Shown one piece after another: positions 7,390 to 33,706 of a stretch of DNA of 33,800 bases (the first letter of the stretch is position 1; each line of letters starts with the position of its first letter). A program made the translations under genes and the position numbers. The notes under the pieces were generated by a model, which had not been told where the DNA came from, made no database searches, and saw nothing but the letters and a program-made list of their open reading frames with translations. The DNA is from Limnohabitans sp. Rim8 (GTDB lineage Bacteria; Pseudomonadota; Gammaproteobacteria; Burkholderiales; Burkholderiaceae_C): NCBI RefSeq assembly GCF_945869175.1, contig NZ_CAMBNZ010000022.1:1-33800 (forward strand). The letters are read 5' to 3'.

Positions 7390-7620
7390 AACGCTTTTCA
7401 ATAACTTGTTTGGTGTTGAGTTTAGTCGCCTGCCATCATCCTTGGATGACAAGGATCAATTGAGGGGCCCCCAAGGGGGGGAATCGGTGGACAGCGGGTG
7501 TCTGGTTCGCCTCCCATGCTTGGCCGCTGGGGGTTTGTGTTGAGGGAACTGGCTCAAAAGAAACCGTCATGTAACCGATTTCGTGTGAAAATTGAAATCA
7601 AATTACATGGAGACCTCCGA

Positions 7621-9054
7621 ATGCCCCGTCGCGCCACCAAGATTGTTGCCACTTTAGGCCCTGCTTCCAGCGATCCAGCCTTGCTGGAGGCCATGATTCG
7701 TGCGGGTGTGAACGTGGTGCGGCTGAACTTCAGCCACGGCAAAGCCCAGGACCACGTGGACCGGGCCCGTCTGGTGCGAGAAGCCTCGCAGCGGGCAGGC
7801 CGCGAAGTGGCCATCATGGCCGACTTGCAGGGCCCCAAAATCCGGGTGGGCAAGTTTGTTGACGGCAAAGTGATGCTCGAGCCCGGCATGCCGTTTGTGC
7901 TGGACGCCTCTCGCACCGAGTTGGGTGACTTGCAAGGCGTGGGCCTGGACTACAAAGAATTGCCACGCGACGTGAAGGCCGGCGATGTGCTCTTGCTCAA
8001 CGATGGTCTGATCGTGCTCACGGTGAACGCTGTCAAGGGTGAGCAGGTGCACACCACCGTCAAGCTCGGCGGTGAGTTGTCCAACAACAAAGGCATCAAC
8101 AAGCAAGGCGGTGGCTTGACGGCTCCCGCACTGACCGCCAAGGACATGGACGACATCAAGACCGCCATGAGCCTGTTGGCCGACTATGTGGCCGTGAGCT
8201 TCCCCAAAAACGCCACCGACATGGAAATGGCCCGCCAGCTGTGCAATGTGGCGGGTGCCGAATACGGCCACAAGCCGGGGCTGATCGCCAAGATCGAGCG
8301 CGCAGAAGCCATCCCGCACCTCGAAGCCATCCTCAAGGCCAGCGACGGCATCATGGTCGCCCGGGGTGATTTGGCTGTCGAAGTGGGCAATGCCGCAGTG
8401 CCTGCCCTGCAAAAACGCATGATCAAGTTGGCCAAGGTGCACGACAAGGTCGTCATCACCGCCACCCAGATGATGGAAAGCATGATCACCAACCCGGTGC
8501 CCACCCGTGCCGAGGTGTCTGACGTGGCCAACGCGGTGCTCGACGGCACCGATGCGGTGATGCTGAGCGCCGAAACCGCTGCGGGCAAATACCCGCTCGA
8601 AACCGTCGAAGAGATGGCCAAGATCTGCGAGGCGGCCGAAAGCGCCGAAGACGTGCAGCTCGACGCCGATTTCCGTGGCCAGTCGTTCAGCCGCATCGAT
8701 CAGTCGATTGCCATGGGTGCTTTGTTCACCGCGCACCACCTGGGTGCCAAAGCCATTGTGGCCATGACCGAATCGGGCTCCACCGCCTTGTGGATGAGCC
8801 GCCACCGCGTGCACATTCCCATTTATGCGCTGACCACCAAGCTGACGTCCCAGCGCAAGATGGCGTTGTACCGCAACGTGCGTCCGTTGCTCATGGACAC
8901 CAGCGCCGACCGCGACACCGCTTTGGCCGAGGCCGAAACCCACCTGAAAAACCGTGGCATCGTCGGCACGGGCGATGTCTACGCCATCACCTGCGGCGAG
9001 CCCATGGGTTCACCCGGGGGCACCAACATGCTGAAGATTTGCCAGGTCGCTTGA
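7621..9054 (+). CDS. pyk: Pyruvate kinase
   Basis: Pyk converts phosphoenolpyruvate and ADP to pyruvate and ATP, the last step of glycolysis. Motifs: KIVATLGPASSD at the N-terminus, VNVVRLNFSHG, DLQGPKIRVG, IAKIERAEAI, MVARGDLAVE (the usual third residue from the end is G; here LA instead of LG), TATQMMESM and DAVMLSAETAAGKYP. The C-terminal effector domain extends from about 360 to 477. A GGAG eight bases before the ATG at 7621 supports this start; 41 extra codons upstream are open but not homologous. Length 477 aa is normal. fba follows 129 bases downstream, with its own promoter-like block. Confidence 0.97.
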   Translation: MPRRATKIVATLGPASSDPALLEAMIRAGVNVVRLNFSHGKAQDHVDRARLVREASQRAGREVAIMADLQGPKIRVGKFVDGKVMLEPGMPFVLDASRTELGDLQGVGLDYKELPRDVKAGDVLLLNDGLIVLTVNAVKGEQVHTTVKLGGELSNNKGINKQGGGLTAPALTAKDMDDIKTAMSLLADYVAVSFPKNATDMEMARQLCNVAGAEYGHKPGLIAKIERAEAIPHLEAILKASDGIMVARGDLAVEVGNAAVPALQKRMIKLAKVHDKVVITATQMMESMITNPVPTRAEVSDVANAVLDGTDAVMLSAETAAGKYPLETVEEMAKICEAAESAEDVQLDADFRGQSFSRIDQSIAMGALFTAHHLGAKAIVAMTESGSTALWMSRHRVHIPIYALTTKLTSQRKMALYRNVRPLLMDTSADRDTALAEAETHLKNRGIVGTGDVYAITCGEPMGSPGGTNMLKICQVA

Positions 9055-22113: not shown

Positions 22114-22181
22114 ACCACGCTTGACCGGGTGTGTCGGGCCAGTCGCCGCCAAGTCAGCGATTGTTGTGGGGCTGCGCTACC

Positions 22182-23102
22182 ATGCAACTCATGACCTTGA
22201 GCCGACAACAAATCACGCTGCTGATCACGCTGACTTTGGTCTGGGGCTTTAACTGGCCCATGCTCAAGTTGGGCGTGAACCACTACCCGCCTTTGTCCTT
22301 TCGCAGTTTGAGCATGTGGATGGGGTTGCCCTTTCTGGCCTTGCTGCTGTACGTCAAAAAGGTCCCCTTCAAGATTCCGAAGGCCGATTGGAAAGAGCTC
22401 TTCATTTTGACCGTCACCAACATGCTGGTCTGGCACGTTCTGATCATGCTGGCGGTGCAAAGCCTCTCCAGTGGCCGATCGGCCATCTTGGGCTACACCA
22501 TGCCGATTTTTTCCGCCATGATCGGTGTCTTGGGGTTCGGGGCCGTTCTGCGCTGGCGGGGCTGGTTGGGCGTGGGGTGCGCGGCTTTTGGGGTGGTGCT
22601 GTTGCTTTGGCATGAATTGAGTGCCATCACTGGCAAACCACTGGGCGTGGTGCTGGGGCTGGTGGCTGCAGCGTTTTGGGGTTTGGGCACGCAGCAAATT
22701 CGCCACACCCGCATCCAGGCACCGACTTTGGCTCTGGTGTTCTGGATGACCTGCATGAGCAGCGTGCTCATGAGTGTTCTGGCTTTTGTTTTTGAGCGCG
22801 ACATTTGGGGACCGCCGCCCGACATGGCCTGGGTTGCCATCGTGTACAACGCCTTTGGCGTGTTTGTGTTTGCTCAAGCTGCCTGGCTTTCGCTGGCGCG
22901 CAACTTGCCGCCGCTGGCCTCCACACTGAGTGTGATGTTCATTCCGGTGTTGGGCGTTTTCAGCGGGGCCTACTTCCTCAACGAAGACTTGCATTGGCAA
23001 GACTGGGCCGCCATCGTGCTGATCGTGCTGGCCATTGCTTCGGTGTTGTGGCCCGAGAGCAGACCCCCTGCACCGGCCCGTCAAGCGGCGGCCGATGCCT
23101 GA
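22182..23102 (+). CDS. EamA-family (DMT superfamily) transporter
   Basis: A second ten-helix drug/metabolite-type permease, 306 aa from the ATG at 22182 (another at 22191). TM1 holds LTLVWGFNWPMLKLGVNHYP, a form typical of EamA exporters. The second repeat ends with LASTLSVMFIPVLGVFSGAY and FLNEDLHWQDW. It is not a close copy of the transporter at 18964: the TM1 and loop sequences differ throughout. The amidase gene starts seven bases after its stop, so the two are probably co-transcribed; export of an amidase product or of excess amino acid is a possible but untested link. Confidence 0.85.
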   Translation: MQLMTLSRQQITLLITLTLVWGFNWPMLKLGVNHYPPLSFRSLSMWMGLPFLALLLYVKKVPFKIPKADWKELFILTVTNMLVWHVLIMLAVQSLSSGRSAILGYTMPIFSAMIGVLGFGAVLRWRGWLGVGCAAFGVVLLLWHELSAITGKPLGVVLGLVAAAFWGLGTQQIRHTRIQAPTLALVFWMTCMSSVLMSVLAFVFERDIWGPPPDMAWVAIVYNAFGVFVFAQAAWLSLARNLPPLASTLSVMFIPVLGVFSGAYFLNEDLHWQDWAAIVLIVLAIASVLWPESRPPAPARQAAADA

Positions 23103-23108
23103 TTGAGC

Positions 23109-24428
23109 ATGAACCAAGACCTGACCCTGTTGAATGCCGCCGCCTTGCAGCAGGTTTATGCGCAAGGCCTCACCGACCCTGTGGCCGTCACCCATGCGCA
23201 CCTGGTGCGCATCGCACAGCGCAACCCCGCACTTCAGGCCTTTGTGCATGTGTGTGAAGACTTGGCCTTGCAACAAGCCCAGGCCAGTGCGCAGCGCTGG
23301 GCCCATGGGCAGCCGCTGGGGCCGTTGGATGGTGTGACGATGGCCCTGAAGGACAACGTGGATGTGGTCGGCATGCCATGCACGGCGGGCACGGCTGCCT
23401 ATGCACAGCGCATGCCAACGCAGGATGCACCGATCTACCAACGCCTGCGCGATGCCGGCATGGTCTTGCTGGGTAAGCTCAACATGCACGAAGCCGCCTT
23501 GGGGGCCACCACCGACAACCCCGTCTATGGCCGTTGCATGAACCCCTTGCGCGAGGGGTTCACGCCGGGCGGTTCGAGCGGTGGCTCTGCCGCTGCCCTG
23601 GCTGACCACCTGTGCACCATCGCTGTGGGCACCGACACCATGGGCTCGGTCCGTATACCGGCCGCTTATTGCGGCGTCATGGGCATGATCCCTACGCGCA
23701 CGCGCATGGCCATGGACGGCATCGTGCCCCTGAGTCCCACCCTGGATGTGGCGGGTCCATTGGCCCGCAGCGGTCATGACCTCGCGCAAGCCATGGCTTG
23801 CTTATTGGGCATCAGCCGACCACCCGCTGCGCAAGGCGGCGCGTGGCGCGGTTTGCGCGTGGGTATCCTGCCGCAGACGAGTGAGGTGGAAATGGCGCCG
23901 GCTGTGCAGCAAGCCTGGCAGGCCACACAGCAGCGCCTGCAGTCGCAAGGTGCGCAGGTGCAAACCGTGCGCTGGCCCGACTGGTCCCCAAGCCGTCACC
24001 GTTTGCATGCCTTGCTCATGAGCGAGTGGGAGGGTGCGCAATATTGGCTCAATGCCTTGGGCCCCGAGTTGCCGGGCTTGAGTGCTGGCTTGCAGAAAAT
24101 GCTGCGCTACGGTGCCCGGCTTGGCCCTGAAAAGCGGCAAGCCAGCCAGGCGGCGATCGACGGCTTGCGCGCGCAGGCTGGGGCGTTGTTGATGGGTATC
24201 GACGCCCTGCTCTTGCCCACCACGCCGCACACCAGTTTTGCCCACACGGAAGCTGCACCCGCCAGCCAGGCCGATTGGGCGTGCTTGGCCAATATGCTGG
24301 GAGCTCCCGCTTTGTCCTTTCCTTGCCCCACCGATGGTTTGCCGGTGTCGTGCCAGTTGCTGGCCGCACCCGGTCAGGACGAGCGCTTGCTCGCGCTGGC
24401 CTGTGCGCTCGACACGTTCTGGGATTGA
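23109..24428 (+). CDS. Amidase-signature family hydrolase
   Basis: A cytoplasmic amidase (439 aa) of the amidase-signature family, which uses a Ser-cisSer-Lys triad. Seen: GVTMALKDNVDVVGMPC with the catalytic Lys, TPGGSSGGSAAALADHL with the cis-Ser, and VGTDTMGSVRIPAAYCGVMG with the nucleophile Ser (the usual residue before GS is Gly; here Met). Lack of GatB and GatC nearby and the shorter length argue against GatA. Substrate unknown: carbamoyl acids, half-amides and aryl amides are all possible. The 3' end overlaps the convergent PrpD-family gene by 55 bases. It starts seven bases after an EamA transporter. Confidence 0.88.
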   Translation: MNQDLTLLNAAALQQVYAQGLTDPVAVTHAHLVRIAQRNPALQAFVHVCEDLALQQAQASAQRWAHGQPLGPLDGVTMALKDNVDVVGMPCTAGTAAYAQRMPTQDAPIYQRLRDAGMVLLGKLNMHEAALGATTDNPVYGRCMNPLREGFTPGGSSGGSAAALADHLCTIAVGTDTMGSVRIPAAYCGVMGMIPTRTRMAMDGIVPLSPTLDVAGPLARSGHDLAQAMACLLGISRPPAAQGGAWRGLRVGILPQTSEVEMAPAVQQAWQATQQRLQSQGAQVQTVRWPDWSPSRHRLHALLMSEWEGAQYWLNALGPELPGLSAGLQKMLRYGARLGPEKRQASQAAIDGLRAQAGALLMGIDALLLPTTPHTSFAHTEAAPASQADWACLANMLGAPALSFPCPTDGLPVSCQLLAAPGQDERLLALACALDTFWD

Positions 24429-25795
24429 CGCCAGGTTTGCAAGCTGTCCCACAAAGGCCCCAAGGCCTGGGCCCTTGGCAGTGCCTGAACCAGACCGATG
24501 AGCTGCTCGGCCCGCGCCACACTCCAGCCACTGGCGTGCAGCAATTGCGCCGCTTTGGCCTGCACTTGGTCAGGACTTAAGGGGTTTTCCGGGTCGCCTA
24601 AAACGTTGACCACTTCACTGTTGTGGTGATGACCGTTGGCCATTTGCAGGTGCAACCGTGCACCAAAGCTTTGCGGGTAAGCTTGGTCCTGAGCAGGCCC
24701 GCACACCAGCGTGACCCTGCCGCGCAACGCGGCGCATAAAGGGTCTGCCAGGGCCGCTGGCGCGGTGGCCTCCAGCCCAAACCCGCCATGGCCCAAGGTC
24801 CAGGCCACACCATGCTGCAAACTGAACTTGCCTTGCAGGGCCGTTTGGGGATGGGGCTGGTCTGCAAATGACAGCGCCACGCCATAGGTCTCTAGGCGGA
24901 TCTGGGCAATCTGATCGGGATCGATCCCTTGGTTGTGCAACTGCAGCGCACACTCGATGGCGGGGTGGACATGCCTGCAAGCGGGCCAAGGCTTGAAGCT
25001 GACCTCGTGCACACGCCAGGCGCGCTCGGCAGAGGTTTGCAGCATTGCTTGCGCCCGGAGCGCGTCAAGATTGCCTGCAGTGGCCTTCAACCAACCCAGA
25101 GGGCCTTCCAAGATGGACAAGGGGCCAGTCATGCCCGCCGCCGCCATGTCGGCCGCCACCAGGCCCGCTTGGGCGCTGTGGCCTGCGGCCATCTGCTTGG
25201 CCCAGCCCGGCTCGAGTCGGCATTGCCAGACGCCTGCAGACTGCATGCCGGCCAAGGCCAGGGCATGTTGCGTCTTTTGGGTGTCGAGCTTGAGCAAACG
25301 GGCGCAGGCCATGGCGCTGGCAAAGACACCCGTGGTGGCGGTGCTGTACCAGTGGGCGTAATGTGAGGGCCCACTGAGCAGTCCGAGCACGATCGCGGTT
25401 TCGTAGCCCACCACCAACGCATCGAGCAAAGCTTCTGCGCTGGCGTTTTCACGCTGGGCCATGGCCATCGCCGCTGGCACGACGGTGTCGCCCGGGTGCA
25501 CCACGGCTTCGCGGTGCACATCGTCCAATTCGTTGCAACTGCCCAAGGCGCCATGCCAGCGGGCCGCTTCTGTGGCCTGCAAGCCAGGGTGACCACACAC
25601 CCAAACGGGGCCGGGCGCTTGTGCTTTCGCCCATTGCCTCAACACCGCACCCAGTTCGGTCGTTTGCCCCAAGTGCGCGCAGCCCAGCCAGTCGATCAGG
25701 TGCAAGGCTGCGCGTTCACGGTCGGGCCCATGCACCGGTCTGCGCAAAGCCGCCACCAGCCATTCGCTCCACGGCGTTGGGGTGGTATCGCTCAT
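24374..25795 (-). CDS. MmgE/PrpD family protein
   Basis: The MmgE/PrpD fold includes 2-methylcitrate dehydratase, cis-aconitate decarboxylase and iminodisuccinate epimerase. This 473-residue member has the helical domain with AARWHGALGSCNELDDVHRE and VHPGDTVVPAAMAMAQ (about 80-115), WQCRLEPGWAKQMAAGHSAQ with the conserved Lys-x5-His-like stretch, and SFKPWPACRHVHPAIE. None of the usual prp genes (prpB, prpC, acnD) is near, so methylcitrate metabolism is unlikely. The start touches the stop of the enoyl-CoA hydratase gene (TGATG) and it is the last gene of the leftward cluster. Its end overlaps the amidase. The reaction cannot be assigned. Confidence 0.88.
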   Translation of the reverse strand: MSDTTPTPWSEWLVAALRRPVHGPDRERAALHLIDWLGCAHLGQTTELGAVLRQWAKAQAPGPVWVCGHPGLQATEAARWHGALGSCNELDDVHREAVVHPGDTVVPAAMAMAQRENASAEALLDALVVGYETAIVLGLLSGPSHYAHWYSTATTGVFASAMACARLLKLDTQKTQHALALAGMQSAGVWQCRLEPGWAKQMAAGHSAQAGLVAADMAAAGMTGPLSILEGPLGWLKATAGNLDALRAQAMLQTSAERAWRVHEVSFKPWPACRHVHPAIECALQLHNQGIDPDQIAQIRLETYGVALSFADQPHPQTALQGKFSLQHGVAWTLGHGGFGLEATAPAALADPLCAALRGRVTLVCGPAQDQAYPQSFGARLHLQMANGHHHNSEVVNVLGDPENPLSPDQVQAKAAQLLHASGWSVARAEQLIGLVQALPRAQALGPLWDSLQTWRQSQNVSSAQASASKRSS

Positions 25796-26601
25796 CACCG
25801 GCCCTTGAAGCGGGGCGGCCTTTTTTCATTGAAGGCCAACACGCCTTCGCGCCGATCTTCACTGTCCACCAGCTGGTTGTAGGCCTCGATTTCAAACCGG
25901 AAAGCGGTGCGCAATTCCATTTGGCCACCGTAGCGGATGGACTTTTTGACCTGCCGTACCGACAGCGGGGCGTTGCGTGCCAGGGTTTGCGCTGTGCGCA
26001 GGGCCAAGCCCAAGAGCTGCTCGGGTTCGATGACCTGGTTGACCATGCCCCAATCCAGCGCCTGCTGGGCGGTGAAGGCTTGGCCCGTCATGATGAGTTC
26101 TTTGGCCCTGCGGTCACCGATGGCCCGAGGCAGGTTTTGCGTGCCGCCCATGCCGGGCATGATGCCCAGCGTGACCTCGGGCAAAGCAAAACGTGCGCTG
26201 CTGCTGGCGTAAATGAAATCGCAGCACAGGGCCAACTCCAGACCGCCGCCATAGGCGTGGCCATTGACGGCTGCGATCACGGGCAACGGTAAATCCACCA
26301 AGGCCCAGGACACACGCTCAAAAATTTCATGCTGGTGGGTCCATTGCGCACGCGTCATGCCATTGCGCTCTTTGAGGTCGCCCCCTGCACAGAAAATTTT
26401 CGGACCTGCGCCAGTCAACACCACACAGCGGACGCCGTGTGGATCGTCTGTCAGGCGCTGCCACAGGTCCAGCAGTTCCTGGCCCATGCGCGTGTTGATG
26501 GCGTTGCCCACATCGGGGCGGTTCAGGGTGACTTGCAGAACACCATCGGCGTGGTGTTCCAGCAGCAGTGTCTCTGGGGCTTGCAGCAGGTCCATGGACA
26601 T
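25795..26601 (-). CDS. Enoyl-CoA hydratase/isomerase family protein (crotonase fold)
   Basis: A 268-residue crotonase-type enzyme likely to hydrate an enoyl-CoA in the cluster pathway. Seen: VTLNRPDVGNAINTRM, the oxyanion-hole region KIFCAGGDLKE, AAVNGHAYGGGLELALCCDF with the first catalytic Glu, and FALPEVTLGIMPGMGGTQNL with the second catalytic Glu. Both glutamates needed for hydration are therefore present, unlike the second crotonase-like gene at 30950. It lies 15 bases after the SDR gene and is joined to the PrpD gene by TGATG, so the three form one transcription unit. A second in-frame ATG occurs at 26595. Confidence 0.92.
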   Translation of the reverse strand: MSMDLLQAPETLLLEHHADGVLQVTLNRPDVGNAINTRMGQELLDLWQRLTDDPHGVRCVVLTGAGPKIFCAGGDLKERNGMTRAQWTHQHEIFERVSWALVDLPLPVIAAVNGHAYGGGLELALCCDFIYASSSARFALPEVTLGIMPGMGGTQNLPRAIGDRRAKELIMTGQAFTAQQALDWGMVNQVIEPEQLLGLALRTAQTLARNAPLSVRQVKKSIRYGGQMELRTAFRFEIEAYNQLVDSEDRREGVLAFNEKRPPRFKGR

Positions 26602-26616
26602 CGAGGCCTTTGAATT

Positions 26617-27393
26617 TCAATTCGGAGCGTATTGCTGCCCACCGTCGACGTGCAGGACCGTGCCGCTCAGATAGCCACACACAGGGGATGAACAATGAAC
26701 AGCCAAGCGTGCAATTTCGTCAGGTTCGGCCAAACGGCCAAACGGCAATTTCTGTGTCATCTCCAGCCAGCGCGATGCATCGCCGAGTTTGCTGGCCGCT
26801 TGTTGCTTGAGAACACCTTCAATGCGGTCGCTGCGGGTCGGGGAGGGGTTGATGCCGAACACACGCACACCCTTGCGCACACTGCCCCCACCAATGCCTT
26901 GCGTGAACGAGATCAACGCACCGTTGGCCGCAGAGCCACAGATGTATTCGTAACGCGATGCAGCCCCGGCCATGCCGATGATGTTGCAAATCACGCCTTG
27001 TCCGCGTGATTCCATCGCCCCCAAATAAAGTCGGGTGAGATTGATGTAGCTGAACAGTTTGAGCTCCCAAGAAGCACGCCACGCGTCTTCGGCGATGTCA
27101 TGGATGCTGCCCCCCGGAATGGCGCCTGCGTTATTGACCAGGATGTCCGCCGAAGGAAACAGGTTGAACAAAGCGCGGTCTGAGCCAGGTTGCGACAAAT
27201 CGATTTCTGCGACGGCAGGGGCAGGCAAGCCCGCCTTGGCAAAAGCGTCCAGAGCGGCGTCCAGGTTGCTGCGCTGACGCGACACCAGCACCGGTTGGGC
27301 ACCTTCACGGGCAAAGTTCAAGGCAATGGCCAGACCGATGCCTTTGGAGCCACCGGTGACGATGACTTGTTTTTGATCGAGTTCGAGGTTCAT
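26617..27393 (-). CDS. Short-chain dehydrogenase-like protein with altered active site
   Basis: A 258-residue Rossmann-fold protein of the SDR family. The cofactor loop TGGSKGIG (13-20), SRQ at the end of the second strand, ILVNNAG (84-90) and the C-terminal FGRLAEPDEIARLAV plus SGTVLHVDGGQ are typical. At the catalytic place, where YxxxK is expected, the sequence reads GSAAN (153-157), and the preceding Ser position falls in NIIGMAG. A tyrosine lies three residues before GSAAN. NAD(P) binding looks intact, but normal carbonyl reduction is doubtful; a binding role or a different chemistry is possible. The ATG at 27393 is chosen because homology starts there. A perfect palindrome lies just upstream, and the hydratase gene follows after 15 bases. 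Confidence 0.87.
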   Translation of the reverse strand: MNLELDQKQVIVTGGSKGIGLAIALNFAREGAQPVLVSRQRSNLDAALDAFAKAGLPAPAVAEIDLSQPGSDRALFNLFPSADILVNNAGAIPGGSIHDIAEDAWRASWELKLFSYINLTRLYLGAMESRGQGVICNIIGMAGAASRYEYICGSAANGALISFTQGIGGGSVRKGVRVFGINPSPTRSDRIEGVLKQQAASKLGDASRWLEMTQKLPFGRLAEPDEIARLAVHCSSPVCGYLSGTVLHVDGGQQYAPN

Positions 27394-27455
27394 GGCAGAG
27401 GCCTGCAAATGGGGCAAGGCGATGCACTGGCCCGGGTTTCAAAATCTAGGCAAAG

Positions 27456-27475
27456 GCTTGGTTTGCAAACCAAGC
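27456..27475. promoter_or_regulatory. Perfect 20-base palindrome between the PuuE-like and SDR genes
   Basis: GCTTGGTTTG followed by its exact complement CAAACCAAGC, no mismatch, in the 90-base gap of an otherwise tightly packed gene series. On the minus strand it is followed by a possible -10 (TAGATT), not by a T tract, so an operator for an internal promoter before the SDR gene is more likely than a terminator. Confidence 0.55.
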
Positions 27476-27483
27476 ACGCCCCA

Positions 27484-28368
27484 TCAAGCGCCAGGTGCGG
27501 GCACCTGTGCGGTGTACCAGTCGGCAATTTGCCCTCCGTTCATGAAGCACACCTGGGGCGACTTCATCAACAAGTCCAGCATGCGTTCAAAGCTGGCAAA
27601 GCGGTGGGGCACACCGATCAGGTGCGGGTGCAGCCCAATGGCCAACACGCGGGGGTGTGTGGCTGCTTCACGTTCAAACAAGGCCAGGGTACGTGCCAGG
27701 CGTTCGTACATCTCGTCGCTAGTGTGTTTTTCGATGGCGTAAACGATCGAGTCGTTGATTTCCAGGTTGTAGGGCAGGGCCAGCAAAGGGCCGTTGCGCG
27801 TTTGCATCCAACTGGGCACATCGTCCACCACCCAATCAAACACATAATCCACGCCCTGCTTTTTCAGCAACTCGGGCGTGTCGTGCGTTTCACGCAAACC
27901 GGGACTGAGCCACCCTCTGGGGCGCTGGCCCGTGAAGCGCTCGATCATGTCCAAGCTCATGGCGATCAGCGATTCTTCGGACTCACCTTGGTTGTGGTTC
28001 AGGCTTTTTTGGTGCACCCCGTGGCCAATGAATTCCCAGCTTGCATCGTGCATGGCTTGCGTGGCTTGGGGGTAAGCATTGATGACGCCCGCATTGAAAC
28101 TGGTGGAGGCGGGCAGCCTCCGGTCCTGAATGGCCCGCAGGATGCGCGGCAGTCCAGCCCGCATGCCGTAGTCGGCCCAGCTGAAGTTGGGCACATCGGG
28201 CACCGTCTCTTTGCCGTGCGGTGGCGTGATGATGGTGCGCGGCATGCTCGACTCGAACTGCCAGTGCTCCACGTTCACCACCAAGTGCACCATGATGGCC
28301 CCACCAGGCGCAGCCTTGAGGGATGGGCCATCGTTGGAGAAGCGGTAAGGAATGCGGGGGTTGGCCAT
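27484..28368 (-). CDS. PuuE-like polysaccharide-deacetylase-family hydrolase
   Basis: A 294-residue NodB-fold protein closest in form to the PuuE/allantoinase-like branch, whose members open cyclic amides rather than remove acetyl groups from sugar polymers. Seen: MVHLVVNVEHWQFES where deacetylases have TFDD, FIGHGVHQKSL in place of the HxxxH motif, RPRGWLSPGLRETHDTPELL and LAIGLHPHLIGVPHR. The usual metal-binding Asp is thus missing. There is no signal peptide, which fits a cytoplasmic small-molecule hydrolase. The ATG at 28368 follows the ABC ATPase stop after one base, so it is tied to the importer. A cyclic imide, ureide or other ring amide is a reasonable but unproven substrate. Confidence 0.82.
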   Translation of the reverse strand: MANPRIPYRFSNDGPSLKAAPGGAIMVHLVVNVEHWQFESSMPRTIITPPHGKETVPDVPNFSWADYGMRAGLPRILRAIQDRRLPASTSFNAGVINAYPQATQAMHDASWEFIGHGVHQKSLNHNQGESEESLIAMSLDMIERFTGQRPRGWLSPGLRETHDTPELLKKQGVDYVFDWVVDDVPSWMQTRNGPLLALPYNLEINDSIVYAIEKHTSDEMYERLARTLALFEREAATHPRVLAIGLHPHLIGVPHRFASFERMLDLLMKSPQVCFMNGGQIADWYTAQVPAPGA

Positions 28369-28369
28369 G

Positions 28370-29119
28370 TCAGTGTCGAATGAGGTTGAGGATGTCGAGC
28401 TTGAGCGATGCAAAGGTTTCGCTGGCCGTGTCGGCCACGGTGCGAGGACGTGCCAGGGGCACGTTGATCTTGGTTTGAATGCGACCCGGGCGGGCCGACA
28501 TCACGTAAACCGTGCTGGCCAAAAAAATCGCTTCGTCGATGTCGTGCGTGACAAAGATGATGGTGGGCTTGAGCTGTTGCCACACATTGAGCAGCAGCTC
28601 CTGCATGGTCAAACGGGTTTGGGCATCCAGTGCACCAAAGGGCTCGTCCATCAGTAACACGCGTGAGCCCAGCGTCAGGATGCGTGCGATGCCCACGCGC
28701 TGGCGCATGCCGCCCGACAGTTGCACCGGCAAATGGTTCTTGAAATCGCTCAGGCCCACGATCTTGATCATTTCGTGGGCACGGTCTTCGTACTCGCTGC
28801 GCGCCATGCCCTGCACCTTGGGGCCGAAAATCACGTTGTCCCAGACACTCAGCCAGGGAAACAATGCGGCTTCCTGGAAAACCACGCCGCGGTCAGGACC
28901 AGGTGCGCTGACAACACCCCCATTGACCAACAACTGTCCCGCTGTGGGCTGCTCAAACCCAGCAATGAGGTTCAGCAAGGTGGATTTGCCGCAGCCTGAA
29001 GGCCCCAGCAAGGCCACCAACTCCCCTGGAGCGACCTGCAATTGGATGTCTTCCAGGGCCTTGACGGGCGTGCTGCCCGGGTAGGTCTTGTAAAGGTTTT
29101 TAATGGAAATATCGGACAT
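28370..29119 (-). CDS. ABC transporter ATP-binding protein (sulfonate/nitrate/taurine type)
   Basis: The cytoplasmic ATPase of an importer of the SsuB/TauB/NrtD group, 249 aa. Walker A is GPSGCGKST (39-47), the Q-loop VVFQEAALFPWL (79-90), the signature LSGGMRQ (134-140), Walker B VLLMDEPFGALD (154-165) and the switch His192 in FVTHDIDEA. The length and the ALFPW after the Q-loop are typical of this group. It lies eight bases after the permease gene and one base before the PuuE-like gene. The family cannot reveal the substrate, since members carry sulfonates, nitrate, cyanate, pyrimidine precursors and aromatic acids. Confidence 0.93.
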   Translation of the reverse strand: MSDISIKNLYKTYPGSTPVKALEDIQLQVAPGELVALLGPSGCGKSTLLNLIAGFEQPTAGQLLVNGGVVSAPGPDRGVVFQEAALFPWLSVWDNVIFGPKVQGMARSEYEDRAHEMIKIVGLSDFKNHLPVQLSGGMRQRVGIARILTLGSRVLLMDEPFGALDAQTRLTMQELLLNVWQQLKPTIIFVTHDIDEAIFLASTVYVMSARPGRIQTKINVPLARPRTVADTASETFASLKLDILNLIRH

Positions 29120-29127
29120 GGTGTTTC

Positions 29128-29934
29128 TTAATGGCTTTGCAGCATGCGCCAGACCAAAACCCTGCTTTCAATGAAAACGATCAGGCGATCACTCAAAAAA
29201 CCCATGATGCCGATCGACACCATGTCGGCCAGCACGATGTCCATGCGCCCCACGTAATAGGCGTCCCACAGCACGTAGCCCAGACCGGACTTGACGGCCA
29301 CCATCTCGGAGACGATCACGGCCGTCCACGAAATGCCCAGACCAATGCGCAAGCCGGTGAAGATGGAGGGCATGGCCGCGGGCAGTACCACGCGGTACAG
29401 CAATTGCCTGCGACTGGCACCCATCATCAGGGCCGCGCGCACCAGGTTGCGCTCGACATCGCGCGCGCCTTGCGTGGTGTTGACCACAATCGCGTAAAAG
29501 CCGCCCAAAAAGATCAGGAAGATGGCCCCCATGTCCCGAATGCCGAACAGGGCAATCGAAAACGGCAACCAGGCCGTGATTGGGATCGGGCGCAAGCTCT
29601 GGATGAGTGGGTCAAACAGTTGCTGAACCAAACGGCTCCAACCGATCAGCAAACCCAAAGGGACACCGACCAGAGCCGCCAGGAAAAAGCCCTGCGCCAC
29701 CCGCATCGAGGAGTACTGGACGTTGGACACCCAAGAGCCCAGATAAGGGTTCAGGCCCATGCCGGGTGAGCCAAAAATCCAGCCGTGCCAGCCTTCCAAA
29801 ACCAGCACGGGGGTGGGCAGGATGCCGGCCATGCCTGGCTTGCTGCCGGCGATCTGCCAGATGACCAGAACCACCGCTGGCACCAACAGGCCAAGCACTG
29901 TCCGACGAAGGGTATCGAGAGAAGCGTTTGCCAT
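29128..29934 (-). CDS. ABC transporter permease (SsuC/TauC type)
   Basis: An inner-membrane permease of 268 aa with six hydrophobic segments. The EAA-like loop that docks the ATPase is visible as ALMMGASRRQLLYRVVLPAAMPS, preceded by NTTQGARDVERNLVR, both typical of the SsuC/TauC group. The N-terminal segment LGLLVPAVVLVIWQIAG is TM1. It lies between the binding-protein gene (15 bases upstream) and the ATPase gene (eight bases downstream), completing the importer. Confidence 0.93.
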   Translation of the reverse strand: MANASLDTLRRTVLGLLVPAVVLVIWQIAGSKPGMAGILPTPVLVLEGWHGWIFGSPGMGLNPYLGSWVSNVQYSSMRVAQGFFLAALVGVPLGLLIGWSRLVQQLFDPLIQSLRPIPITAWLPFSIALFGIRDMGAIFLIFLGGFYAIVVNTTQGARDVERNLVRAALMMGASRRQLLYRVVLPAAMPSIFTGLRIGLGISWTAVIVSEMVAVKSGLGYVLWDAYYVGRMDIVLADMVSIGIMGFLSDRLIVFIESRVLVWRMLQSH

Positions 29935-29949
29935 GAAGGTGCTGCCTGA

Positions 29950-30927
29950 TTATTTCTTGAGTTCCACGACCATCGAGTCGTCGTAAAGGGCGGCTGCTTC
30001 CTTGGTCACGTCTTTTTGCACAATGCCTTGCTTGAAGGCAGCTTCAGCCAAGCGCGAAACTTGTTCTTTGGTCAGCACGCCACCGAGCTTGATGATCTTG
30101 GCCGACTCTTTGGTCACATTGAGTGGCAAGCCGGTGTACTTGGAGTAAGCATCGGCAAACACATCCTTGTTCTTGCTCAGGGTTTCTTCGGCCTTGAGAT
30201 AAGCCCAGAGGAAGCGGCGAACCAGTTCTTTCTTTTGTGTCATGGCTTCGCCAGAGGCGGCCAGCATGCCCAGCTCGGCGCCCACAGCACGCGATTGGCT
30301 GTACTCCAGTTTTTGCGAGAAGTAGGCATCGCCTTCTGCCACAGCCTGTGACTCAAAGGGCTCCCACAACACCATGGCATCGATGTCGCCGCGCTTCATC
30401 GCCTGCACAAAAGCGGTGCCGCCACCTTGCACGTTCACGGGGGTGAACGAGTTGTAGGGGATGTTTCTCTCGATCAAGGTCATGGCCCACTGGAACCAGA
30501 CGGCTGAGCCAGGGGCAATGGCAATCTTCTTGCCTGCAATGTCGCCCCAGTCATCGATCTTCACGCCTTTGCGCACCACCAGGTATTTGGGCGAGCTGCC
30601 CACACCCGTCAGGCCCACCAGGTTTTTGCTGCCTTGCCCGGCCACGATGGCCAAGTCACCCGCGCCCACGGCCGACACATCGACCGAGTTGGACAGCAAG
30701 GCGGTGCGGGCATCGGCGTAGCGCACAAATTCTGCGCGCTTGACTTCGATGTTCATTTTCTTGAGTTCTTCTTCGACCAAGAGCATGGGTGAGAGGTGGC
30801 CCACTTTGACGTAGCCGACAGTCAATGTGGCTTTGTCTTTGAGGGGGGCGGGCGCCGGGCCCAGTGCCAAGGCTATGCCGGTCGAGACCGACAGCGCAAA
30901 GCCGATGAGGGAAGTCAAAAGTTTCAT
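29950..30927 (-). CDS. ABC transporter substrate-binding protein (SsuA/TauA/NMT1 type)
   Basis: The periplasmic receptor of the importer, 325 aa. The first 22 residues (MKLLTSLIGFALSVSTGIAL and ALG) are a signal peptide; the mature domain starts with the family strand TLTVGYVKVGHLSPMLLVEE. Later stretches KIAIAPGSAVWFQWAM, NVQGGGTAFVQAMKRGDIDA and MVLWEPFESQA are typical of two-lobed SsuA/NMT1-like proteins. A GGAG seven bases before the ATG at 30927 fixes the start; the frame is open upstream. It lies 22 bases after the frameshifted hydratase-like gene. Ligand not inferable. Confidence 0.92.
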   Translation of the reverse strand: MKLLTSLIGFALSVSTGIALALGPAPAPLKDKATLTVGYVKVGHLSPMLLVEEELKKMNIEVKRAEFVRYADARTALLSNSVDVSAVGAGDLAIVAGQGSKNLVGLTGVGSSPKYLVVRKGVKIDDWGDIAGKKIAIAPGSAVWFQWAMTLIERNIPYNSFTPVNVQGGGTAFVQAMKRGDIDAMVLWEPFESQAVAEGDAYFSQKLEYSQSRAVGAELGMLAASGEAMTQKKELVRRFLWAYLKAEETLSKNKDVFADAYSKYTGLPLNVTKESAKIIKLGGVLTKEQVSRLAEAAFKQGIVQKDVTKEAAALYDDSMVVELKK

Positions 30928-30949
30928 CTGAATACTCCTGGGTTGGTGG

Positions 30950-31730
30950 TTATTGACCGGTGAACTGAGGGGAACGCTTTTGTGCGAAAGCCAGTCTGCC
31001 TCCCGCATAATGGTTGCTTTTGAAAGACGCGTCGATGGCGGTTTTCACTGATGTCATGTCTTTTTCGTCTTCTGCCAGGGCCACCAAGGTTTTCTTGGGA
31101 GCCTGGATGGTCAAGGGCGCATTGTCTGCAATCTCATAGGCCAAGGCGGTGCAGTGGGCAAACACATCCTCAACCACTGCAAGGACCATGCCCATGGCCT
31201 GTGCGCTGGCGGCGTCATAGACGCGGGTGGTAAAGAAAGCCTCTGCTGTGGCCTGCGGCCCCAGTTTGTTCAAAATGCTTTGCATGTTCTCGCAGTCATA
31301 ACCCAGGCCCATACAGGCCGCAGGCATGCGAAAACGCGAATGCGGTGTGGCGTAACGCATGTCACAGCTCAAGGCCAGGCCCAGCCCGCCGCCATAGCAA
31401 ATACCACTGATGGCCGCGATCACCGGCACGCGGCAGCGAAATACCGATTGCTGGGTGCGTCTGACCATGTCGTTGTAATGGGCCACCGAGGCCGCCGAGT
31501 TGCGCTGTGTTTCGAACTCGCTGATGTTGGCGCCTGACACAAAGCACTTCTCGCCCGCGCCGCGCAACACACATACACGCACGCACCTCTGGGCGGCAGT
31601 CAATCTCCTCAAAGGCCGCCAGCAAGGCCGTCCACATGGACAGGCTCATCGCGTTGTGCCGGGTCACGTCGTCGATCGTGACCTGTGCCACATGGCCTTG
31701 CAGGTTCAGATCGATGCAGCCCTCGCTCAT
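30950..31730 (-). pseudogene. Enoyl-CoA hydratase-like gene broken by a frameshift
   Basis: Two reading frames together give one crotonase-fold protein of about 258 residues. The first 50 residues (from the ATG at 31730, with HVAQVTIDDVTRHNAMSLS) are in one frame. From about 31577 the homology continues in another frame (VCVLRGAGEKCFVSGANISE, then YGGGLGLALSCDM and MPAACMGLGYD). The switch sits on a doubled GCGT (minus strand); removing one copy gives E-V-R-V-C-V-L-R-G-A-G. Even repaired, the two usual catalytic Glu residues read Gly and Ala. The start overlaps the CoA-transferase stop (ATGA). It may be a recent pseudogene, a reversible slip or a sequencing error; an internal start at 31612 would give a 220-residue fragment. 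Confidence 0.83.
31577..31586. repeat. Short tandem repeat at the frameshift site
   Basis: ACGCACGCAC on the plus strand, two and a half copies of a four-base unit, next to an alternating purine/pyrimidine stretch. One extra unit explains the reading-frame change exactly. Confidence 0.75.
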
Positions 31731-32923
31731 ACAACGCCCCGGGCGTGAAAGCCTTCAATGTCCGCAGCCGAAAACCCCAGATCTTGCAACACCTCGTCGG
31801 TGTGTTCGCCCCAGCCGGGTGCCGGGGCCACCACCTTGGAGGGCGTGCGGCTGAGCACCACGGGTTGGGTGATGAAATGCATGTCCTTGCCAAACTGAGT
31901 GGGCAATGTGGTGGTGACCTGCAGGTGCTTGACCTGCTCATCTTCGAACACCTGCGGCACCGTGTAGACCGGCCCTGCAGGCACGCCGGCCTGGTTGAGC
32001 AACGAGACCCATTGGTGCACGGTTTTCTTTGGAAACTCTTGGGCGATCAACCGGTTCAGGCGCTCCCTGTTCTGTACACGCAGCGGCTCCGTCACAAACT
32101 CTGGGTCTTGGTACCAATCGGGTTTTTGCAGCACTTCGCAAAAGCGTTTCCAGTTGCCTTCGCCCGAAGCACCCAAATTGAAACAGCCATCGCTGGCCTC
32201 GAACAAGCCCATGGGCGAGCTGGTGGGGTGGTTGTTGCCCACTTGCACCGGCACATCGTTGTCGTTCAGGTAGCGCGCCATCTGGAAATCCATCATGGCA
32301 ATTTGCGAATGCAGCAAGGAGCTTTGCACCCACTGGCCCTGGCCTGACGTCTCGCGTTCGATCAAGGCCACCAAAATGCCAATGGCGCAGTACAGCCCTG
32401 CGCTCAGGTCGGCCACAGCCAAGCCGGCCCGAATGGGGCCGTGCTCAGGCTCGCCCGTCACGCTCATCAACCCACCCATGCCCTGAATGATTTGGTCAAA
32501 GCCAGGTCGCCAGGCATAAGGACCATCCTGCCCAAAGCCGGAAATACTGGCCAAAATGATGCGCGGGTTGAGGGCCTTGAGCGACTGGTAATCCAGCCCC
32601 AGCCGGTCTTTCACATCTGGACGCCAGTTTTCCACCACCACATCGGCCTGGACAATCATGCACTTGAGGATGTCCATCGCGCCCTCTTTTTTGAGGTTGA
32701 GCGTCATCGACCGTTTGTTGCGGTTGATGTTCTGAAAATCCCCCCCCTTGCGGTTGGCGGCAAACATCGCTTCATTCGGGTCCACCCCTTCAGGGGGCTC
32801 CACGCGCACCACATCGGCACCAAAATCGGTCAAGATCCGCACGCAATTGGGGCCAGCGCGAACGCGGGACAAGTCGATGACTTTGAAGCGTGAAAGTGCA
32901 GGAGAAGCTTGAATTTTGGGCAT
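31727..32923 (-). CDS. CaiB/BaiF family (family III) CoA-transferase
   Basis: Family III CoA-transferases move CoA between carboxylic acids, typically activating the substrate of a catabolic pathway. The 398-residue protein has the N-terminal FKVIDLSRVRAGPNCVRILTDFGADVVRVE with a typical acceptor-fold start (usual VLAGP reads VRAGP), NINRNKRSMTLNLK, and GLAVADLSAGLYCAIGILVAL, where Asp172 is the expected nucleophile. It is the first gene of the leftward cluster, divergent from gntR across 117 bases that hold AT-rich palindromic sequence. Its stop overlaps the next gene. Candidate acids include dicarboxylates such as itaconate or mesaconate, by family precedent only. Confidence 0.92.
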   Translation of the reverse strand: MPKIQASPALSRFKVIDLSRVRAGPNCVRILTDFGADVVRVEPPEGVDPNEAMFAANRKGGDFQNINRNKRSMTLNLKKEGAMDILKCMIVQADVVVENWRPDVKDRLGLDYQSLKALNPRIILASISGFGQDGPYAWRPGFDQIIQGMGGLMSVTGEPEHGPIRAGLAVADLSAGLYCAIGILVALIERETSGQGQWVQSSLLHSQIAMMDFQMARYLNDNDVPVQVGNNHPTSSPMGLFEASDGCFNLGASGEGNWKRFCEVLQKPDWYQDPEFVTEPLRVQNRERLNRLIAQEFPKKTVHQWVSLLNQAGVPAGPVYTVPQVFEDEQVKHLQVTTTLPTQFGKDMHFITQPVVLSRTPSKVVAPAPGWGEHTDEVLQDLGFSAADIEGFHARGVV

Positions 32924-32964
32924 AAATCAGGTGTCATGGGACTTTAAAAACAAAATTAATCCCC

Positions 32965-32978
32965 ATAAATATATTTAT
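32965..32978. promoter_or_regulatory. AT palindrome in the caiB/gntR divergent region
   Basis: ATAAATATATTTAT is self-complementary over 14 bases, in the 117-base AT-rich gap between the CoA-transferase and gntR genes. A second element, CTGTATGCAA (32988-32997), matches eight of ten bases of the TTGTATACAA form bound by several GntR/FCD regulators. Either could be the binding site of the adjacent regulator. Confidence 0.4.
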
Positions 32979-33040
32979 AGTCCATAACTGTATGCAAAGC
33001 AATATGACAAAATATCGGTGTTTGCCCTTAGAAGAACCCC

Positions 33041-33706
33041 ATGAAAGTCAGCGATCAAATCCGTTTGCACTTGGAAGAAGCCATTTCCAAAGGTGATTTG
33101 CTGCCTGGGGACCCGATCGATGAAGTGGCTTTGTCCGAGCGTTTTGGTGTATCTAAAACACCGATTCGCGAGGCGCTCATCCAGTTGCAGGCCCAAGGCT
33201 GGGTCGGCAACATGCCCCGGGGCGGCAGCACCGTGGCCAAGATGAATTTGCAGCAACTGCTTAGCCTCTGGGAGCTTTTGGCCGAACTGGAGGCTGTGGC
33301 GGTGCGACTGGCCTGCGAGCGCATGCCTGAGGAAGACCTGCAAAAGTTGTTTGTATTGCACGAAGAAAGCCGTTTGGTGGCCGGGGCCGAGGACCTGCAG
33401 GGTTGGCAAAAGCTCAATTTGGCGTTTCATGAGCTCATTTATCAAGGCACACGCAACCCGTTTTTACGGCAAGAAGTCTTGCGCATCCGTTTTCGCACAG
33501 GCGTTTACCGCCGCCACGCCTTCGGTGCCTTGGGCCGTTTGCAGGCCTCGTTTGAGCAGCATGAACTGATTGTTCAGGCGCTGCACGCGCGCGATGCCGA
33601 TGCGGCCGTTGTGTCGATGCGTGACCACATGCGCCCAGGGCGGGATGCCAAAAGTTTGAACGACTTCATCCTCAATTTGCCCACAGATTTGCTGGCATCG
33701 CAGTGA
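33041..33706 (+). CDS. GntR family transcriptional regulator, FCD (FadR-type) subfamily
   Basis: A 221-residue DNA-binding regulator. Residues 1-68 form the winged helix (EVALSERFGVSKTPIREALIQ is the recognition part, GNMPRGGSTVAK the wing). Residues 75-215 form the all-helical FCD ligand domain, with the probable metal or ligand residues Asn126/His130 (N replaces the usual Asp), His174 and His196. It is divergent from the CoA-transferase gene, the classic position for control of a catabolic cluster, usually as a repressor released by a pathway carboxylic acid. The ATG at 33041 is preceded by a weak AGAAG. Confidence 0.93.
   Translation: MKVSDQIRLHLEEAISKGDLLPGDPIDEVALSERFGVSKTPIREALIQLQAQGWVGNMPRGGSTVAKMNLQQLLSLWELLAELEAVAVRLACERMPEEDLQKLFVLHEESRLVAGAEDLQGWQKLNLAFHELIYQGTRNPFLRQEVLRIRFRTGVYRRHAFGALGRLQASFEQHELIVQALHARDADAAVVSMRDHMRPGRDAKSLNDFILNLPTDLLASQ

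Follow-up and report, generated by a model that had tools for sequence, protein, structure and literature searches.

A conserved catabolic operon of Limnohabitans sp. Rim8 predicted to combine cyclic amide hydrolysis with coenzyme A ester chemistry

Which compound is degraded by a tightly packed gene cluster on contig NZ_CAMBNZ010000022.1 of Limnohabitans sp. Rim8 (assembly GCF_945869175.1, 2.77 Mb, 137 contigs, 90% complete), and do its genes act together? The window, i.e., the whole stretch of DNA analysed here (33,800 nucleotides, positions 1 to 33,800 of the forward strand), carries nine leftward genes from 32923 down to 24374. In order, they encode a family III (CaiB-type) coenzyme A (CoA) transferase, the crotonase-fold protein EchA, the binding protein, permease, and ATPase of an ATP-binding cassette (ABC) importer, a PuuE-like cyclic amidohydrolase, a short-chain dehydrogenase/reductase (SDR), the enoyl-CoA hydratase EchB, and an MmgE/PrpD protein (PrpD). 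A GntR/FCD regulator gene is divergent at one end and an amidase gene convergent at the other. This is a regulated catabolic operon of a known kind, in a gene combination of which no printed description was found in open-licence papers. The gene set very probably serves a single pathway. With confidence a little short of even, we favour an inducible operon through which a single small nitrogen heterocycle would be taken up and broken down. The compound would most likely be a cyclic imide or lactam whose backbone is a substituted four-carbon dicarboxylate, and the operon would join cyclic amide hydrolysis to branched C5 dicarboxylate CoA chemistry.

The reactions, the substrate, and the binding of the regulator are predicted as follows. 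The heterocycle would be taken up by the ABC importer, and a hydroxylactam may be oxidised to the imide by the SDR. The PuuE-like hydrolase would open the ring to a half-amide, from which the amidase would free ammonia to leave a 2-substituted succinate of the methylsuccinate or mesaconate type. CaiB would form the CoA ester, to be oxidised by an acyl-CoA dehydrogenase that lies in the operon of some relatives and has its nearest homologue here at a second locus; hydration and a citramalyl-CoA-lyase-type cleavage would then lead to central metabolites. The GntR regulator would work via a palindrome in the divergent gap. The ring-opening, deamidation, and CoA-activation steps are considered rather likely, a methylsuccinate-type product possible but tentative.

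Conservation, gene order, and regulation

Species-level genomes were scanned with the PuuE-like protein, which gave 134 matched stretches, of which 127 were confirmed and 80 kept. Together with locus L031, this yielded 81 loci, 46 of which form the full-flank set to which all counts out of 46 refer; the other 35 have less than 6.5 kb upstream or less than 5 kb downstream of the PuuE-like gene. The complete core of six genes (CaiB, EchA, the three importer genes, and the PuuE-like gene) was present in 41/46 relatives, which share ancestry, so that these co-occurrence counts are not independent events. The core genes plus amidase were found in 40/46, and an amidase of either kind (at the operon front, or placed as in the window) in 43/46. 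Counted singly, CaiB occurred in 44 relatives, EchA in 43, the binding protein, permease, and ATPase in 44 each, and the SDR in 38; the regulator was GntR-type in 28 and LysR-type in 13, and homologues of EchB and PrpD were found in 12 and 13, respectively. Conservation of the operon extends over Beta- and Alphaproteobacteria and takes in many bacteria of soil and water (including records of Limnohabitans, Polaromonas, Caballeronia, Achromobacter, Parapusillimonas, Azospirillum, Azorhizobium, Bosea, and Enterovirga); at this locus, Limnohabitans records are the closest named relatives. Some relatives swap the importer while the enzymes stay together.

As controls, 23 loci with more distant PuuE homologues (at most about 53% identical) were picked by hand, with no flank-length filter (three are shorter than 15 kb) and leaving out L036 (4 kb), L134 (no annotation), and L181. 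No EchA, acyl-CoA dehydrogenase, itaconyl-CoA-hydratase-like (Ich-like) gene, or SDR exceeded the threshold in these 23 loci; a CoA-transferase did so in one (L178, 256 bits), an amidase in two (L037, L180), an ATPase in three, and TctC in six. The PuuE homologue of L181 is 44% identical, yet homologues of CaiB, the dehydrogenase, the Ich-like protein, and EchA are present there with another importer; its inclusion would make 1/24 controls carrying such genes. A preliminary description of this DNA had read the genes as one regulated pathway. They are not scattered in relatives, and that reading is well supported by the co-occurrence, by the operator-like palindrome, and by the importer-swapping relatives that keep their enzymes together.

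PuuE alignment at E 1e-100 gave matches in 8/398 phylum genomes and 23/399 order genomes (own genome included), several of the matches read being paralogues with other neighbours. Two other genomes of the genus, searched at 1e-30, gave no match, and the distribution is therefore patchy. Given the operon's conservation in Beta- and Alphaproteobacteria and its repeated presence in freshwater Limnohabitans, the substrate may be a dissolved nitrogen compound that is common but still unlinked to such genes. Limnohabitans, Azospirillum, and Variovorax are culturable owners among the records. In six loci (L071, L073, L064, L065, L079, and L080), the binding-protein gene runs in the opposite direction, and the EchA and permease genes are separated by a cupin gene and a second SDR gene.

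The open reading frames (ORFs) and protein families of the preliminary description were recovered by ORF listing and profile searches. With preferred start codons, the leftward intergenic gaps are, in succession, −4, 22, 15, 8, 1, 90, 15, and −4 bases; the divergent gap between the GntR gene and the first leftward gene measures 117 bases, and the convergent amidase ORF shares 55 bases with the end of the PrpD ORF. The earlier picture of nine packed genes between a divergent regulator and a convergent amidase thus stands, except that EchA is not one open frame. The broken frame had been missed, as had the palindrome, the acyl-CoA dehydrogenase of some relatives, and this genome's second locus.

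EchA (30950..31730, minus strand) is split: the frame from 31730 stops at 31362, and the remainder, open from 31612, lies in another frame (ECH_1 2.3e-32 on the C-terminal piece), with the change-over within a GT-rich run at about 31560–31590. EchA is a single open frame in relatives, mostly of 257–260 amino acids. The operon might therefore be decaying and non-functional in this genome, all the more as no dehydrogenase gene lies between SDR and EchB. Against this, the other eight operon genes are open, and their counterparts across L042–L055 are 71–99% identical to those of the window; among 12 Limnohabitans-type loci with the SDR–EchB stretch the dehydrogenase gene is lacking in 8 and present in 4. 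From one assembly, moreover, a mutation and a sequencing or assembly error are indistinguishable. Decay is accordingly judged unlikely.

The divergent gap beside the regulator gene (33041..33706, plus strand; Pfam FCD 4.5e-27, GntR 5.3e-16) holds the palindrome CCATAAATATATTTATAG at 32963..32980, one mismatch from the consensus CTATAAATATATTTATAG. With at most two mismatches, the palindrome occurs in 19/37 GntR-gene loci (among them nine near-identical loci of the Limnohabitans type), and the other 18 have three to six mismatches. Among 370 random 260-base stretches of the same loci, none had fewer than six. The palindrome is conserved in many Betaproteobacteria, and its 15-base core occurs a single time in the own assembly, i.e., in the divergent gap. 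Judging by this conservation, the palindrome is a probable operator and a candidate site for the GntR regulator. A Variovorax plasmid locus (L132) has a second copy (7486–7503) about 185 bases upstream of a cyclase-family hydrolase gene (7689–8693), which may belong to the same regulon.

Importer and amide-hydrolysing enzymes

The PuuE-like protein (27484..28368, minus strand, the ORF opening upstream at 28413) matched PF01522 (2.8e-10) and TIGR03212 (2.4e-36). By sequence, the solved proteins closest to it are of the PuuE type. The structure model (predicted local distance difference test 79.7; residues 57–77 poor) was likewise nearest to the PuuE-type fold (3cl6, E 1.9e-20; 3qbu, 6.8e-16), classical deacetylases following at 1e-07 or weaker. 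PuuE allantoinase (PDB 1z7a, 3cl6) thus shares the fold and is among the nearest solved relatives by sequence, but identity in the fold alignment is only about 25%, the score stays under the PuuE model cut-off, and the operon is without purine genes. Passages of PMC3084791 and PMC9304392 describe ring opening of a small cyclic amide by PuuE and of a cyclic imide by HxnM, the latter being similar to a Pseudomonas putida cyclic imide hydrolase homologue.

The amidase-signature enzyme (23103..24428, plus strand; PF01425 1.9e-88) is near-constant in relatives, and its presence with the PuuE-like gene is in line with opening of the ring and subsequent hydrolysis of the half-amide. The SDR (26617..27393, minus strand) scored 322.9 bits against NF004779, above the cut-off of 261. 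In the Aspergillus nidulans nicotinate pathway (passages of PMC9304392), HxnW (SDR), HxnM (imidase), and HxnN (amidase) work in that order. The operon likewise has an SDR, a ring opener of the PuuE/PgdA fold, and an amidase, a likeness drawn by enzyme type and not by sequence comparison; by this analogy one might guess that the SDR, like HxnW, makes the imide that is then opened. The fungal system differs in yielding a hydroxyglutarate and in having no CoA chemistry (same passages). The logic of import, ring opening, deamidation, and CoA activation put forward in the preliminary description agrees with family membership and with the near-constant amidase; the steps themselves remain predicted.

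All three importer genes lie on the minus strand: the NMT1/SsuA-type binding protein (29950..30927; NMT1_2 5.8e-10; TIGR01728 8.1e-28, below cut-off), the permease (29128..29934; BPD_transp_1 1e-24), and the ATPase (28370..29119; ABC_tran 2.6e-34). Structures did not inform on the ligand, the nearest solved proteins being nitrate, taurine, and sulfonate binders at 5.9e-06 to 0.0059. Neighbours of PuuE paralogues gave no single answer on the substrate either; they are varied and include Bug/TctC proteins and, in some loci, apparent molybdenum-hydroxylase and flavin monooxygenase genes (named by eye from sequence). A second PuuE-like gene, about 40% identical, lies on contig C77 of the own genome (L037 8447–11987) beside amidase and TctC/Bug-type genes.

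A flavin adenine dinucleotide (FAD) monooxygenase related to PnpA/HspB was found in 13/46 relatives and a maleate-isomerase-like protein in 14/46, both together in 12/46. The FAD monooxygenase, a Bug protein, and the maleate-isomerase-like protein are encoded together beside the operon in L066 (168–3164), L072 (11704–14786), and L084 (14619–17704). The monooxygenase genes are a further likeness to the A. nidulans pathway. From this module one may suspect an aromatic or unsaturated N-heterocycle upstream, together with isomerisation of the citraconate/mesaconate type as another entry to the same CoA esters. Riboflavin/lumichrome breakdown was rejected, as passages on it show no such enzymes.

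CoA chemistry and the methylsuccinate link

CaiB (31727..32923, minus strand) is covered over its whole length by PF02515 (3.9e-117, 391.9 bits, positions 1–366 of 366) and hence belongs to family III. An acyl-CoA dehydrogenase gene was found somewhere in 18/46 relatives, often between SDR and EchB. Ich-like proteins of relatives matched itaconyl-CoA hydratase 8khg at 2.8e-55, and their lyase-like protein scored 188.3 bits against citramalyl-CoA lyase RipC (cut-off 375). A search for the nearest homologues of the relatives' dehydrogenase matched 64 places, and 30 loci were read. Apart from a single PuuE operon among them, 27/29 carry Ich, CaiB, or PrpD homologues inside the 1.5-kb flanks, none of these being found within such flanks in L142 and L160. 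In a quick tree with long branches flagged, 27/37 dehydrogenases from PuuE loci formed a clade next to the Ich-linked ones, and the labels change five times in the tree, compared with 23.9 in shuffles; the remaining ones have other positions, including three on the Ich-linked side. The dehydrogenase was placed by this grouping; among the characterised Cupriavidus necator and Pseudomonas aeruginosa sequences, only the solved hydratase, found by search, entered the comparisons.

According to passages of PMC12290011 (Gonner et al.), the itaconate/methylsuccinate cluster ich-mcd-mmgE-ict-ccl of these two species encodes a methylsuccinyl-C4-CoA dehydrogenase and a methylsuccinate isomerase beside itaconate enzymes. 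The operon shares a CoA-transferase and MmgE/PrpD with it and, in some relatives, a dehydrogenase of the Ich-linked clade, an Ich-like hydratase, and a RipC-like lyase; it adds the amide-hydrolysing front end, its own importer, a GntR operator, and EchA. The window itself is without Ich, Mcd, and Ccl, and a five-gene itaconate cluster inside it was therefore rejected. The own genome has such genes elsewhere: on contig C23 (L129 5808–10507), an Ich-like gene (8khg 2.7e-67), a dehydrogenase gene (68% identical), CaiB, and PrpD stand side by side, and this locus is of the itaconate/methylsuccinate type. The preliminary description had listed cyclic imides or ureides yielding dicarboxylic acids as candidates; since some relatives recruit methylsuccinate/itaconate-type CoA enzymes, the dicarboxylic-acid end point gains support.

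Several observations weigh against the favoured reading. The PuuE-like protein reached 125.3 bits with TIGR03212 (PuuE), where the cut-off is 424.6, and is thus below equivalog level. Profile searches of the window proteins found no acyl-CoA dehydrogenase, Ich, or lyase gene, and among relatives the Ich-like gene (8/46) and the Ccl-like gene (4/46) are in the minority; the best lyase homologue in the own genome, on contig C42, is weak (143 bits, cut-off 375). The PrpD protein (24374..25798, minus strand; PF03972 4.5e-50, PF19305 9.1e-33) departs from the methylsuccinate isomerase residues His88, Glu91, His102, Tyr148, His152, Lys202, and Lys266 (paper numbering, placed by spacing on the C23 protein): it has Ser at His88 and Tyr at His152, the other five being kept. 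In PuuE-locus PrpD rows, His88 is replaced by Ser or Asn in 22/22 and His152 by Tyr in 16/22, whereas C23-type PrpD has all seven residues in 4/4. A methylsuccinate isomerase role of the operon PrpD is hence unsupported by its residues. EchA, finally, is a core gene yet without a clear step in the proposed scheme. Of the two catalytic crotonase glutamates, which we take to be numbered 144 and 164 in the rat enzyme, the second is replaced by Ala or Gly in the EchA rows displayed, and the first position is Glu only in the alphaproteobacterial ones among them.

EchA lacking its second catalytic glutamate, an ordinary hydratase role is unsupported by the residues and unlikely; a fold search named no function that fits among the 50 best fold matches. 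The protein would gain a role if a pyrimidine-like ureide were opened and its deamidation gave a malonate-type acid, which CaiB would activate and EchA decarboxylate, in the manner of methylmalonyl-CoA decarboxylase, which lacks the crotonase glutamates. The substrate of PuuE is indeed a ureide, and EchA matched the decarboxylase 1ef8 at 1.6e-21 and keeps the motif FRMP(A/G)AR(L/M)GLGY with its Tyr. Yet 1ef8 ranks far behind other crotonases and falls outside the 50 best fold matches, and the dehydrogenase, Ich-like, and lyase-like genes would be without role, which makes this the least probable of the routes considered.

EchB (25795..26601, minus strand; ECH_1 4.9e-73) has both catalytic glutamates in its translation, located by eye with the motif that we take to mark them. 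EchB and the SDR would gain a role if glutarimide or a six-membered lactam gave glutarate, which CaiB and the dehydrogenase would turn into crotonyl-CoA; hydration by EchB and oxidation by the SDR would then give acetoacetyl-CoA. The best NCBIfam match of CaiB is succinate-glutarate CoA-transferase (322.6 bits, cut-off 750), and the second match of the dehydrogenase is glutaryl-CoA dehydrogenase (220.1 bits, cut-off 470). Both scores are far under their cut-offs, however, the dehydrogenase groups with those beside Ich/PrpD homologues, and the Ich-like and lyase-like genes of relatives are left without a role; this straight-chain route is improbable to about the same degree as decay.

In the bbs pathway of benzylsuccinate, a family III CoA-transferase, a dehydrogenase, a hydratase, and an SDR act on a substituted succinate. 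A larger alkyl- or aryl-succinate could be processed by the same family set in the operon, cleavage by EchA or EchB replacing the thiolase, so that EchA, EchB, and the SDR would all be used. CaiB matched the benzylsuccinate CoA-transferase subunits (9fn0) at 5.9e-39, but it is closer to other enzymes (formyl-CoA transferase 10uh, 4.1e-74). The operon further differs from bbs in its single CaiB gene instead of two subunits, in having no thiolase, and in its amide-hydrolysing front end, and the dehydrogenase clade points to methylsuccinyl-CoA. This route appears quite unlikely, ranking between the straight-chain and the ureide routes.

Taking up the favoured reading of a branched cyclic imide or lactam again, the operon would, if that reading is true, be a second source of methylsuccinate besides itaconate reduction; passages of PMC12290011 give the latter as the now known source of environmental methylsuccinate, the origin of which was unclear until recently. 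Rather doubtful, although placed slightly above the straight-chain route, is a wider proposal: a widespread proteobacterial pathway that mineralises branched cyclic imides or lactams via imide hydrolysis, half-amide hydrolysis, and methylsuccinyl/mesaconyl-CoA, and as such a natural methylsuccinate source. Its substrates might be, e.g., methylsuccinimide or methylmaleimide-type fragments, as of chlorophyll or haem pyrrole rings, and the PrpD variant (Ser/Asn for His88) might take the half-amide rather than the diacid.

On a Comamonadaceae plasmid (L168 4053–13574), Ich-like, dehydrogenase, CoA-transferase, lyase, and MmgE/PrpD genes lie near a polysaccharide-deacetylase-family gene. This locus was not counted as support, as adjoining deaminase and amidohydrolase genes suggest purine breakdown. 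In the window, the amidase gene is adjoined by an EamA-type transporter ORF (22131–23102, named from its homology group), a homologue of which lies near the operon in 11/46 relatives.

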